From Paludisphaera soli (GTDB taxonomy: Bacteria > Planctomycetota > Planctomycetia > Isosphaerales > Isosphaeraceae), in contig NZ_JAALJI010000010.1 of the NCBI RefSeq assembly GCF_011064595.1, forward strand, positions 62,001 to 126,000: DNA of 64,000 bases, in the 5' to 3' direction. Positions 550-5,850 of this stretch are shown in pieces. The position numbers and the translations under genes are program-made. The notes beneath the pieces are model-generated. The model did not search any database. It was not told the origin of the DNA and saw nothing but the letters and a program-made list of their open reading frames with translations. Each line of letters begins with the position of its first letter. The first letter of the stretch is position 1.

Positions 550-972
550 TCGTCACTCGACGCGCCTGCCCGATTTGCTTTTTTCGGTCCACGCGTTCCC
601 CAACTCTCCGGGATGTCCCACCATAATCTGGGGAAATGCGCCCGCCCCTCAGGCCGCGCCCGGCGATTCGGGCGGCGGAATGCTCGCGAGACGACGACCG
701 CCTCGCTTCGGGCGTGGCGAAGTGCGCCGAACGAAGCCGATCCCGGGCCCCTCCACCTGTCCACAAAGCCTATTCCAGAAGCAAGATGCATCCGACGGCT
801 TCGTTTTCGGGTCCGGTCGAACGAACCCGATTCGGCCCGGCTCGCGTCGGGGAGGCTCGCCGAAGTTCCGGGGCCCGTCGGGTTGGTCCAATCACTCAGG
901 GGGCTTATGATGAACCCAGCCAGGATCTCCAGGGCATCCAGACAGCTTCGTCGAAGCGGACGTGGAATCATC
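550..972. other. Intergenic stretch with dispersed repeats upstream of pckA
   Basis: No convincing gene lies here, although the pckA reading frame stays open back to 613. The segment from about 728 to 840 carries copies of a short motif, CGAACGAAGCC(G/A)AT, that recurs in the gap at 28.4-28.9 kb. A purine-rich AGGGGG sits at 898-903, just upstream of an in-frame ATG at 907, so an alternative pckA start lies within this stretch. No clear promoter hexamers were seen. Confidence 0.6.
728..835. repeat. Short dispersed repeat, CGAACGAAGCC type, two direct copies
   Basis: CGAACGAAGCCGATCCCGG lies at 728-746 and a related copy, CGAACGAACCCGATTCGG, at 818-835. A reverse-oriented relative, GGCTTCGTTTTCGGG, lies near 796-811. 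The same core recurs at 28411-28424, 28812-28825 and about 28895-28920 in another intergenic region, and I did not notice it in coding sequence here. This pattern suggests a genome-wide intergenic repeat rather than chance, but its function is unknown. Confidence 0.6.
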
Positions 973-2544
973 ATGAGCGGCCATGAGAAGGAAGTCGTGA
1001 AGTCGCACGGGCTCGAGACGCTGGGCATCGCGCGGAAGGCGCCGACCCACTGGAACCCGCCGGCGCCGGCCCTGTACGAGCACGCCGTGCGTCGCGGGGA
1101 GGGGCTGATCGCCCATCTCGGCCCCTTCGTCGTCGACACGGGCCGCCACACCGGCCGGTCGCCCGGCGACAAGTTCACCGTCAAGGAGCCCGGCAGCCGC
1201 GACCGGATCTGGTGGGGCGAGCACAATCACCCGATCTCCGAGGAATCCTTCGACCGCGTCTGGGACCGTCTGCGGGCCTACCTGGCCGACAAGGAGCTGT
1301 TCGTCCAGGACTGCTACGGCGGCGCCGATCCTCGCTTTCGGCTCCCGGTCCGGGTCGTCACTCAGTACGCCTGGCACAGCCTCTTCATCCGGGACTTGCT
1401 CATCCGCGAGCACGACGAGGACGTCCTGCGCGAGTTCCTCCCCGAGTTCACGATCGTCGACGCCCCCGAGTTCCAGGCCGATCCCGCAACCGATGGCACC
1501 CGGTCCGGCACCTTCATCCTCATCAACCTCGCGAGGAAGCTCGTCCTGATCGGCGGCACCCGCTACGCCGGCGAGATCAAGAAGTCGGTCTTCTCGATCC
1601 TCAACTACCTCCTCCCCCTGCGTGGGGTGCTGGGGATGCACTGCTCGGCCAATTACGGCGCGGACCGCGACGACGCGGCGCTGTTCTTCGGCCTCTCGGG
1701 GACCGGCAAGACGACCCTCTCGACCTCGCCCGACCGGACCCTCATCGGCGACGACGAGCACGGCTGGAGCGAGGACGGAGTCTTCAACTTCGAGGGGGGC
1801 TGCTACGCCAAGGCCATCCGCATCCGCGAGGAGACCGAGCCCGAGATCTACGACACCACCCGGCGGTTCGGCACCTTGCTGGAAAACGTGGTCATCGACC
1901 CGGACACCCGGCGGCTCGACCTCGACAGCGCGGAACTCACCGAGAACACCCGGGCGGCGTACCCCATCACGCACATCCCCCACGCCGACCCGGCGGGCGT
2001 GGCGGGCCATCCCCGGCACATCTTCTTCCTGACCTACGACGCCTTCGGCGTGCTGCCGCCGATCGCCCGGCTGACCGCCGACCAGGCCATGTTCCACTTC
2101 CTCGCCGGTTACACCTCGAAGGTCGCCGGGACCGAAACGGGCGTGAACGAGCCCCAGGTGGTGTTCAGCCCCTGCTTCGGCGGGCCGTTCCTGCCGCTCC
2201 ACCCCAGGGTCTACGCGAAGTTGCTGGGCGAGAAGATCCACCGCCACGAGGTCCGCTGCTGGTTGGTCAACACCGGGAACACCGGCGGGCCCTACGGCGT
2301 CGGCAGGCGGATCGCCATGCCGATCACCCGGTCGCTCGTCCATGCGGCGCTGGCGGGCGAGCTGAACGAGATCGCGACCGAGCCCGACGAGGCGTTCCGC
2401 CTCGGCCGGCTGACCTCATGCCCCGGCCTGGCCCCGGACGTGCTCGACCCCCGGGCCTCGTGGCCCGACCCGGAGGCGTATGACCGGAAGGCCGCCGAGC
2501 TGGCGGCCCGCTTCGCGGAGAACCACGACAGGTTCCAGGCCTGA
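973..2544 (+). CDS. pckA: Phosphoenolpyruvate carboxykinase (ATP)
   Basis: This cytosolic enzyme converts oxaloacetate and ATP to phosphoenolpyruvate, CO2 and ADP, the first step of gluconeogenesis. The 523-residue product matches the usual 520-540. It shows an RSPGDKF substrate-binding motif, a P-loop GLSGTGKTTLS (about residues 240-250, Lys246) and the metal/kinase-2 motif LIGDDEHGW (257-265), which are the hallmarks of the ATP-dependent family. The start at 973 places the homologous N-terminus directly after MSGHEK. In-frame ATGs at 907 and 910, which have a better ribosome-binding site (AGGGGG at 898-903), would add about 21-22 residues. The gene converges on hpnR, and the two stop codons share one hairpin. 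Confidence 0.95.
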   Translation: MSGHEKEVVKSHGLETLGIARKAPTHWNPPAPALYEHAVRRGEGLIAHLGPFVVDTGRHTGRSPGDKFTVKEPGSRDRIWWGEHNHPISEESFDRVWDRLRAYLADKELFVQDCYGGADPRFRLPVRVVTQYAWHSLFIRDLLIREHDEDVLREFLPEFTIVDAPEFQADPATDGTRSGTFILINLARKLVLIGGTRYAGEIKKSVFSILNYLLPLRGVLGMHCSANYGADRDDAALFFGLSGTGKTTLSTSPDRTLIGDDEHGWSEDGVFNFEGGCYAKAIRIREETEPEIYDTTRRFGTLLENVVIDPDTRRLDLDSAELTENTRAAYPITHIPHADPAGVAGHPRHIFFLTYDAFGVLPPIARLTADQAMFHFLAGYTSKVAGTETGVNEPQVVFSPCFGGPFLPLHPRVYAKLLGEKIHRHEVRCWLVNTGNTGGPYGVGRRIAMPITRSLVHAALAGELNEIATEPDEAFRLGRLTSCPGLAPDVLDPRASWPDPEAYDRKAAELAARFAENHDRFQA

Positions 2545-2568
2545 CCCTGGACCGGCTCCGGTCAGGCC
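2538..2568. terminator. Hairpin shared by convergent pckA and hpnR
   Basis: GGCCTGACC (2538-2546) pairs perfectly with GGTCAGGCC (2560-2568) across a 13-nt loop. The stop codon of pckA (2542-2544) lies in the left arm and the stop codon of hpnR (2562-2564, minus strand) in the right arm. Only 17 nt separate the two genes. There is no T-run on either side, so this is a candidate bidirectional transcription end rather than a textbook intrinsic terminator. Confidence 0.5.
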
Positions 2569-4115
2569 GAGGGCTTGCCGCCGATCCGGGTCTCCTCGAC
2601 GAACGCCTCGGTTTGGGCGTCGATCGAGCGGCCCCGTCGGCCCGGCGACGGGTGGATGTACAGGGTATGCGGGTCCACCACGTCCTGATGTGCGGGGGGG
2701 GGCGTCATCGGGTAGCGGACCGGCTGGCGATGGTCGGCGAGCTGCAGCTCGGGGTTGAAGACGCTGTTGAACTTCCAGAGCATCTTGAGCGTGTTGGTCT
2801 GCCCCCGCCGCAGGTTGTCGGCCAGGATCCCGCCGAGCGCCACGAAGGCCTTCCAGCCCAGGTGCTTGCGGTTGAGGACCTGCTGGGTCTTGACCAGCTC
2901 GGCGTAGAAATCCTCGATCGGCAGCTTGGTCGGCAGCACCGCGTGCTGGATGTCGAACAGCCGGTAGTCGTGGGTGGTGAGCTTGCGCGACTCGGTGACC
3001 CAGCTCTCGGTGCCGGGATAGGGGGTGTTCACGCTGATGTTGACGATCTCGGGGATCTCCAGGCACCACTGCCGGATGACCTCGAACTGCTTCCGGTCCC
3101 ACGACGGGTCGGCGATCAGGTTGATCGCGACCATGATCCCCAGTGACCGCGCGAACTCCAGGGCCTCGAAGCTCTTGGAGAGCGTCACCCGCTTGCGAAA
3201 GCGCTTCAGGCCCTCCTCGTCGATCGCCTCGACGCCCAGGAACATGTACTGGAGGCCCAGCGTCTTCCAGAACTTGAAGACATCCTTGTTGCGCAGGAGG
3301 ACGTCGCCCCGGGTCTCCAGGTAGTACTGCTTGCGGATCCCCCGGCGGGCGATCCCCTCGCCGATCGCCATGCCGTGCTCGGCCTGGATGAAGGCCACGT
3401 CGTCGACGATGAAGACGCCCGGCTCGCGGATCGAGGCCAGCTCGTCGACCGACGCCTCGGCCGACTTCACCCGGTAGCTCCGGCCGTAGAACGTCCAGGC
3501 GCTGCAGAACGAGCAGTCCCAGGGGCAGCCCCGGCTGAACTCGATCGAGGCGCAGGGGTCCAGGACCCCGATGAAGTACTTGCGGCGGTGACGCAGCAGG
3601 TCGCGCGCGGGGGTCAGGTCGTTCAGGTCGTGGACGAACGCCGCCCGGGGGCCGTGTCCCGAAGGCGCGACGACGCCGGGGATGTCCAGGAGGCTCGTCG
3701 GGTCGCGGTCGGCGGCGGCTTCGATCAGGCGGGCGACGGCGGCCTCCCCCTCCCCCTTCAGCACGCAGTCGATGGCCCCCTCGGCGTGCCGCAGGACGTC
3801 CTCGGCGACGAACGAGGCGCTATGGCCGCCGGCGAAGAGGAAGGCGTCCGGGAGCCGCTGCCGCGTCGCCTTCGCCAGGTCGATCACCTCGGGGATGTTC
3901 GCCAGGTAGTTGAGCGAGTAGGCGACGGCGTCGGGCCGCCAGGAGTCGATCGCCCGGAGATAGGCTGCGTGGTCCTCGACCTGGAGGTCGATCAGGCGGA
4001 CGTCGTGGCCGGCCCGTCGCAGCTCCGCCGCGATCGTCTCGATCCCCAGCGGCTCCAGCCGCAGGAAGACCTTCGTGTACATCAGCGAGCTGGGGTGGAC
4101 GGCCAGGATCTTCAT
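2562..4115 (-). CDS. hpnR: B12-binding radical SAM enzyme, hopanoid C-3 methylase-like
   Basis: The predicted role is SAM- and cobalamin-dependent methylation of hopanoids at C-3. The 517-residue protein has an N-terminal cobalamin-binding (Rossmann-like) domain (about residues 1-150). A radical SAM domain follows, with the cluster motif CPWDCSFC (Cys197, Cys201, Cys204), and a long C-terminal part ends in a TLYIHPSPGR...EAFVEETR segment. The opening MKILAVHPSSLMYTK and the LWKFNSVFNPELQLADH stretch match my memory of HpnR proteins closely; sister B12-radical SAM families do not open this way. The start at 4115 is chosen because homology begins there; the open frame to 4304 is an artefact of base composition. 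No other hopanoid genes (shc, hpn) are nearby. The exact substrate is inferred. Confidence 0.8.
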   Translation of the reverse strand: MKILAVHPSSLMYTKVFLRLEPLGIETIAAELRRAGHDVRLIDLQVEDHAAYLRAIDSWRPDAVAYSLNYLANIPEVIDLAKATRQRLPDAFLFAGGHSASFVAEDVLRHAEGAIDCVLKGEGEAAVARLIEAAADRDPTSLLDIPGVVAPSGHGPRAAFVHDLNDLTPARDLLRHRRKYFIGVLDPCASIEFSRGCPWDCSFCSAWTFYGRSYRVKSAEASVDELASIREPGVFIVDDVAFIQAEHGMAIGEGIARRGIRKQYYLETRGDVLLRNKDVFKFWKTLGLQYMFLGVEAIDEEGLKRFRKRVTLSKSFEALEFARSLGIMVAINLIADPSWDRKQFEVIRQWCLEIPEIVNISVNTPYPGTESWVTESRKLTTHDYRLFDIQHAVLPTKLPIEDFYAELVKTQQVLNRKHLGWKAFVALGGILADNLRRGQTNTLKMLWKFNSVFNPELQLADHRQPVRYPMTPPPAHQDVVDPHTLYIHPSPGRRGRSIDAQTEAFVEETRIGGKPSA

Positions 4116-4419: not shown

Positions 4420-5850
4420 ATGGCCGACCAGCCGACCTCGCAGCCGAAGAAGCTCTACATCGAGACCGTCGGCTGCCAGATGAACGTCCTCGACAGCGAG
4501 CTCGTCGTCGCCCGCCTGCGCGACGACGGCTACGAGCTGACCGACGACATCGACCAGGCCGACGCCATCCTCTACAACACCTGCTCGGTCCGCCAGCACG
4601 CCGAGGACAAGATCTACAGCGCCCTGGGCCGGATCAAGCACCTCAAGAAGAAGAAGCCCGAGCTGGCCGTCGGGGTGCTCGGCTGCATGGCCCAGAAGGA
4701 CCAGGGCCAGATCCTCAAGCGCGCCCCCCACGTCGACGTGGTGATCGGCCCCGGACAGCTCGGCCGCGTCCCCGAGCTGATCGCCAAGGCGAAGGCCGAG
4801 GCGACGCCCCAGATGGCCGTCAGCCTGGCCCGCAACGCGGGCAGCCGCGAGCACGTCACGTCCAGCTTCGACAGCTACGACGCCGACCGCGAGCCCGCCG
4901 TCCGCCCCAGTACGTTCCAGGCGTATCTCCGGGTCATGATGGGGTGCGACAAGTTCTGCACCTACTGCATCGTCCCCTCGGTCCGGGGGCCGGAGCAGAG
5001 TCGCCCGCCGTCGGGGATCGTCGCCGAGGCCCGGCTGCTCGCCATGCAGGGGGTCAAGGAGATCACCCTCGTCGGCCAGACCGTCAACAGCTACAAGCAC
5101 AAGGAGGCCGACGGCCGGATCACCCGGCTCTCGGACCTTCTCGCCCGGCTCCACGACGTCGACGGCGTCGAGCGGATCAAGTTCATCACGAGCTTCCCCA
5201 ACGACATGACCGACGACCTGCTCCAGGCCGTCCGCGACCTGCCCAAGGTCTCGCGCTACATCCACGTCCCCGCCCAGAGCGGCTGCGACCTCGTCCTCAA
5301 GCGGATGAAGCGGATGTACACGGCCGCCTTCTACGAGGAGATGCTGGCCCGGCTCCGCGAGACCATCCCCGGCTCGTCGGTCTCCAGCGACTTCATCGTC
5401 GGCTTCTGCGGCGAGACCGACGAGTCGTTCGAGAAGACCGTCGGCCTGCTGGAGCGCTCCCGGTTCAAGAACAGCTTCATCTTCAAGTACAGCCCCCGCA
5501 CCGGCACCAAGGCCGACGACCTCTACCCCGACGACGTGCCCGAGGAGGTCAAGCGGCGCCGCAACCACGTCCTCCTGGACCTCCAGACGAGGATCAGCCT
5601 GGAAGACAACCGGGCCTTCATCGGCCGCGAGGAGACGGTGCTCGTCGAGGGCCGCAGCCGCTCCACCACCCGCAAGGAGGGCTGGGAGGGCCCCGACCAG
5701 CTCACCGGCCGGACGCACTGCGACCGCATCGTCGTGTTCGACGGTCCCGACGAGCTTTCCGGCCGGCTGACGCGGGTCCGGATCGAGAACGCCAGCGCCG
5801 TGACGCTGTTCGGCCGCGTCGCCGAAGGCCAAGTCGCGGGCCCGGTTTGA
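4420..5850 (+). CDS. miaB: tRNA-2-methylthio-N6-isopentenyladenosine synthase (MiaB)
   Basis: This radical SAM methylthiotransferase converts i6A37 to ms2i6A37 in tRNAs that read UNN codons. The 476-residue protein has the full family layout. An N-terminal UPF0004 domain carries auxiliary-cluster cysteines Cys19 (in VGCQMN), Cys55 (in YNTCSVR) and Cys89 (in LGCMAQ). A radical SAM domain follows with CDKFCTYC (Cys176, Cys180, Cys183), and a C-terminal TRAM-like RNA-binding domain covers about residues 395-470. The length agrees with the family. The partner miaA is not in this window. It is followed after 11 nt by the SMI1/KNR4 gene, so the two are probably co-transcribed. Confidence 0.95.
   Translation: MADQPTSQPKKLYIETVGCQMNVLDSELVVARLRDDGYELTDDIDQADAILYNTCSVRQHAEDKIYSALGRIKHLKKKKPELAVGVLGCMAQKDQGQILKRAPHVDVVIGPGQLGRVPELIAKAKAEATPQMAVSLARNAGSREHVTSSFDSYDADREPAVRPSTFQAYLRVMMGCDKFCTYCIVPSVRGPEQSRPPSGIVAEARLLAMQGVKEITLVGQTVNSYKHKEADGRITRLSDLLARLHDVDGVERIKFITSFPNDMTDDLLQAVRDLPKVSRYIHVPAQSGCDLVLKRMKRMYTAAFYEEMLARLRETIPGSSVSSDFIVGFCGETDESFEKTVGLLERSRFKNSFIFKYSPRTGTKADDLYPDDVPEEVKRRRNHVLLDLQTRISLEDNRAFIGREETVLVEGRSRSTTRKEGWEGPDQLTGRTHCDRIVVFDGPDELSGRLTRVRIENASAVTLFGRVAEGQVAGPV

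Follow-up and report, generated by a model that had tools for sequence, protein, structure and literature searches.

Whether planctomycetes are among the sources of 3-methylhopanoids, which are used as geological biomarkers, is the question raised by a B12-radical SAM gene in Paludisphaera soli. The gene lies in a window of 64,000 nucleotides (C2:62001-126000) from a 7.97 Mb draft genome, assembled in 197 contigs and 99.97% complete, and an earlier note made from the sequence alone had proposed that it encodes HpnR, the hopanoid C-3 methylase. Our analysis places it as an ordinary member of the known HpnR family. Its product is, with high confidence, a true HpnR, that is, a cobalamin-dependent radical SAM enzyme predicted to methylate hopanoids at C-3, whose substrate would be supplied by HpnC, HpnD, HpnE, squalene-hopene cyclase (SHC), HpnH and probably HpnG of the same host.

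The gene and its family

The reading frame is uninterrupted over 517 amino acids, from an ATG at 4115 to a stop at 2562 on the minus strand. The mechanical open reading frame extends to 4304, and the TIGR04367 match begins with the first residue of the frame that opens at 4115. The gene, its parts and its two neighbours are as follows.

613..2544, plus strand: pckA (PEP carboxykinase), convergent neighbour; TIGR00224, 635.2 bits against a cut-off of 590.05
2562..4115, minus strand: hpnR, hopanoid C-3 methylase, 517 aa; TIGR04367, 892 bits against a cut-off of 650, model positions 1-488 of 490
3066..3545, minus strand: HpnR radical SAM domain, residues 191-350; PF04055, 58.3 bits, cut-off 29.5
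3504..3527, minus strand: CxxxCxxC motif (CPWDCSFC), HpnR residues 197-204; read directly from the sequence
3726..4076, minus strand: HpnR N-terminal B12-binding domain, residues 14-130; PF02310, 81 bits, cut-off 32.1
4420..5850, plus strand: miaB (tRNA methylthiotransferase), divergent neighbour; TIGR01574, 465 bits against a cut-off of 355.3

The order of the domains in Pfam searches, B12-binding and then radical SAM with CxxxCxxC, is the layout expected of the family. CxxxCxxC is the usual [4Fe-4S] ligand motif in radical SAM enzymes, and every one of the 59 rows in our HpnR alignment has a CxxxCxxC. The earlier note had read the protein as HpnR over its whole length, pointing to CPWDCSFC and LWKFNSVFNPELQLADH, and both stretches are indeed found in the translated frame. 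Its remark that hpnR has no other hopanoid gene next to it is correct for the genes on either side: pckA (in which homology starts near residue 130 of the mechanical open reading frame 613..2544) and miaB are genomic context only, and miaB lies outside the hopanoid pathway.

Among the 20 NCBIfam families that match the protein, HpnR (TIGR04367) is the best, at about five times the score of the runner-up; the match is full-length and above the cut-off, as the note had anticipated, and no other family, HpnJ included, matches better. BchE and HpnJ belong to the same B12-radical SAM superfamily and match more weakly, along part or most of the protein, but it scores far below both cut-offs (the runner-up BchE, TIGR02026, 171.5 bits against 481.35; HpnJ, TIGR03471, 71.2 bits against 577.6) and is a member of neither. 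No HpnP model is among the 20 matches, and the library may hold no such model.

Comparison with known HpnR proteins is consistent with this placement. The protein is collinear with HpnR of Methylococcus capsulatus over 514 aligned positions, with 70.4% identity (362 of 514) and CxxxCxxC in both, and shc and hpnH are over cut-off in both genomes; the P. soli gene differs in residing in a planctomycete, between pckA and miaB. According to PMC5462960, hpnR is required for C-3 methylation in M. capsulatus. HpnR proteins of Nitrospira/Leptospirillum and of Burkholderiaceae, at about 68-71% identity, rank with the closest non-planctomycete proteins in the best 80 of 474 loci, but their groups are separate from the Isosphaeraceae rows in the tree. 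The 58 other alignment rows (25 of them planctomycete) have 163 columns with conservation of at least 97%, and the P. soli protein agrees at 162 of these, the sole exception being I for L at residue 400. A homology search yielded no solved HpnR structure, the best PDB match being 9ccb, a radical SAM protein (46.6 bits).

Substrate, cobalamin and the predicted product

The earlier note had named shc and hpn genes elsewhere in the genome as a check on its reading, and a squalene-hopene cyclase is present in the host, together with hpnH, hpnC and hpnE over cut-off and below-cut-off matches to hpnD and hpnG. On contig C117, shc (about 721.6-721.8 bits, cut-off 431.1) is followed on one strand by hpnH (about 441.1-441.3 bits, cut-off 225.05) and an HpnG-like gene (108.9 bits, under the cut-off of 187.1); on contig C176, hpnC (335.9 bits, cut-off 250.45), hpnD (265.7 bits, just under the cut-off of 278.6) and hpnE (451.5 bits, cut-off 283.05) are neighbours. 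As the host has genes leading from farnesyl diphosphate through squalene and hopene to adenosylhopane, HpnR would have a substrate. We infer that HpnC, HpnD and HpnE would make squalene, that SHC would cyclise it and that HpnH, and probably HpnG, would elongate the hopene product; HpnR would then add a methyl group at C-3 of ring A to a fraction of the hopanoids, probably bacteriohopanepolyols.

The cofactor may come from outside the cell. In the host genome cobQ (TIGR00313) was not found, and the same search matches 13 of 14 control genomes (7 over cut-off). This result, which concerns one family and not the whole cobalamin pathway, suggests that the host imports its cobalamin and that methylation at C-3 may hinge on the supply of B12; because cobQ was not found, HpnR would be idle without B12.

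An hpnR gene does not prove a product, since, in PMC12583986, 4 of the 12 Alphaproteobacteria with hpnR yielded no 3-methylhopanoid, and most producers had less than 0.3%. HpnR could therefore be real in P. soli and yet silent, with no 3-methylhopanoid formed under natural conditions, a reading fully compatible with the identity of the enzyme. We consider it unlikely, if still credible: the non-producing Alphaproteobacteria and the lack of a cobQ match in the host favour it, whereas the gene is kept without an internal stop in all six genomes of the genus and in the 17 of 45 family genomes that carry it, G407 excepted.

That the protein is instead a close HpnR paralogue, methylating another lipid or small molecule and not hopanoids, seems to us very improbable. 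The B12-radical SAM methylases form a large superfamily, the protein has matches in 20 families and neither gene flanking hpnR is a hopanoid gene, all of which would suit such a paralogue. The score, however, is far over the equivalog cut-off, the identity to M. capsulatus HpnR and the agreement at conserved columns are as high as given above, and the host genome holds hopanoid genes; nor is an isolated position unusual, as hpnR in Alphaproteobacteria, like hpnP, usually lies away from other hopanoid genes (PMC12583986). A true HpnR, predicted to act on hopanoids, is the reading that we carry forward.

Distribution and history in planctomycetes

Profile searches found HpnR above cut-off in 17 of 45 Isosphaeraceae genomes, distributed by genus as 6/6 in the host genus, 2/3 in g268, 1/1 in g277, 5/5 in g279 and 3/3 in g2, and in none of the other 16 genera of the family covered by these 45 genomes. 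Aquisphaera insulae (JC669) is a named carrier. One of the 17 family copies (L114, in G407) has an internal TGA and a model match from position 8, and is either a true pseudogene or the result of an error in the assembly. Of 392 genomes drawn evenly from the phylum, the host included, 12 have HpnR above cut-off, and beyond these G037 holds an HpnR fragment only. Among 398 genomes drawn from the phylum to which M. capsulatus belongs, HpnR was found in M. capsulatus alone.

Each of the 20 HpnR-matching planctomycete genomes checked for SHC, G037 among them, has a match to it (19 over cut-off). HpnH was scored in M. capsulatus and in 28 HpnR-matching planctomycetes and exceeds its cut-off in 28 of these 29 genomes; the exception is G214, which is 67% complete. 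Within Isosphaeraceae, an SHC match occurs in 44 of 45 genomes (43 over cut-off), so that co-occurrence of HpnR and SHC in this family is no independent support.

Gene order is partly shared. Of 17 Isosphaeraceae loci, 10 have miaB close to hpnR; these come from four genera (6/6, 1/5, 2/3 and 1/1), and the count in g268 is 0 of 2. For the 12 loci of other groups the count is zero. Absences in this comparison count for little, as locus lengths differ. In the host genus miaB is beside hpnR in all six genomes. The host genome is a draft in 197 contigs, which leaves room for a contaminating or misbinned contig, an explanation to which we give virtually no weight, hpnR being present in 6/6 genomes of the genus with miaB beside it in each and the Isosphaeraceae rows forming one group (100/98).

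For the phylogeny, 59 of 98 rows were kept in the alignment, with rows more than 93% alike by a crude ungapped count dropped. Two rows, the fragment L101 and L016 (from which one residue was extracted), were removed before trees were built, as were eight loci presumed to be same-genome duplicates from their equal identities to the P. soli HpnR. The long-branch rows L094, L099 and L100 fall together at the midpoint root of the quick tree, and the careful tree was built without them. The non-planctomycete rows are only those within the best 80 of 474 loci for the P. soli protein, among which no acetic acid bacteria, Acidobacteria or Actinobacteria are named; with outside sampling of this kind, we make no claim on the root of HpnR.

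In the careful tree, 16 Isosphaeraceae rows, including those of the host and of Aquisphaera insulae, form one group (100/98), with Burkholderiaceae as weakly supported neighbours (91/79). The host's family group, f1, was equated with Isosphaeraceae because the HpnR of Aquisphaera insulae falls with the f1 rows and because its genome matches the f1 member G393 in the position and score of the cyclase. Together with the proximity of miaB, the grouping of the Isosphaeraceae rows points to one old acquisition of hpnR in the family, after which the gene was probably inherited for the most part vertically and lost in some lineages. In the free tree, five further planctomycete rows are separate from the Isosphaeraceae (100/100). 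A single planctomycete HpnR group, with all 23 rows constrained, was rejected (p-AU 0.0045); holding the planctomycete rows together without two anammox rows was not rejected (p 0.15), and the free tree lacks such a group. Both P values are somewhat flattering, as the constraint groups were named with the quick tree in view.

Anammox carriers and the 3-methylhopanoid record

3-Methylhopanes have long been read as traces of aerobic methane oxidation, and since 2012 hpnR has been known from further carriers, according to PMC5462960 and PMC12583986. The former describes hpnR in methanotrophs, acetic acid bacteria, Actinobacteria, Nitrospirae and Acidobacteria, and PMC8590665 reports anoxic 3-methylhopanoid production in Rhodopila. 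Planctomycete cyclase sequences occur in soil, peatland, estuarine, hypersaline and marine samples (PMC12195314). Our literature search, which was incomplete in coverage, turned up no paper describing hpnR in planctomycetes or anammox bacteria, and an earlier report is possible. What is new here is the lineage that carries HpnR, and the anammox case is its strongest extension.

Within the 33 genomes of family f46 examined, HpnR was found in two genomes of genus g114.

L149:8838-10385: full-length HpnR of G248, 861.8 bits
L150:8688-10235: full-length HpnR of G106, 865.8 bits

The hydrazine synthase alpha subunit matches the solved structure 5c2v over 777 residues in both genomes (G248, 1572.8 bits; G106, 1588.6 bits), and from these full-length matches both are anammox bacteria. 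HZS_alpha (PF18582) was discarded as an anammox marker because it is not specific: 5 of 14 genomes exceed its cut-off, and in G306 it matches 11 times. Both g114 genomes also hold shc and hpnH; in G248, hpnR, shc, hpnH and hydrazine synthase are together on one 3.46 Mb contig, an arrangement that speaks against contamination. The two anammox HpnR rows sit among 15 Nitrospirota rows (96/85). The simplest reading is that g114 gained hpnR laterally from a Nitrospirota-like donor, because of this position and because the 23-row planctomycete constraint was rejected and the one without the two anammox rows was not.

As a prediction from genes, planctomycetes are likely to be additional sources of the 3-methylhopanoid biomarker. 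With Aquisphaera insulae JC669, a carrier that has a strain designation, this question can be tested directly; an anammox carrier would place a capacity for C-3 methylation at anoxic interfaces. A broader proposal, which we put forward tentatively and rate as possible, is that 3-methylhopanoid capacity extends across several planctomycete families, including the anammox genus g114 with its hpnR apparently from a Nitrospirota-like donor, and that the 3-methylhopanes of redox-stratified sediments may partly be theirs rather than those of aerobic methanotrophs.

A closer physical link between hpnR and hopanoid synthesis was seen in two genera of f60 planctomycetes, in which, by gene lists from simple open reading frame choosers, hpnR and shc are on one strand. 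One gene, for succinate-CoA ligase beta, lies between them in G220, and two, for succinate-CoA ligase beta and a lactate-permease-like protein, lie between them in G198.

L151:7645-14378 and L152:7452-12382: hpnR-shc stretches of group f60
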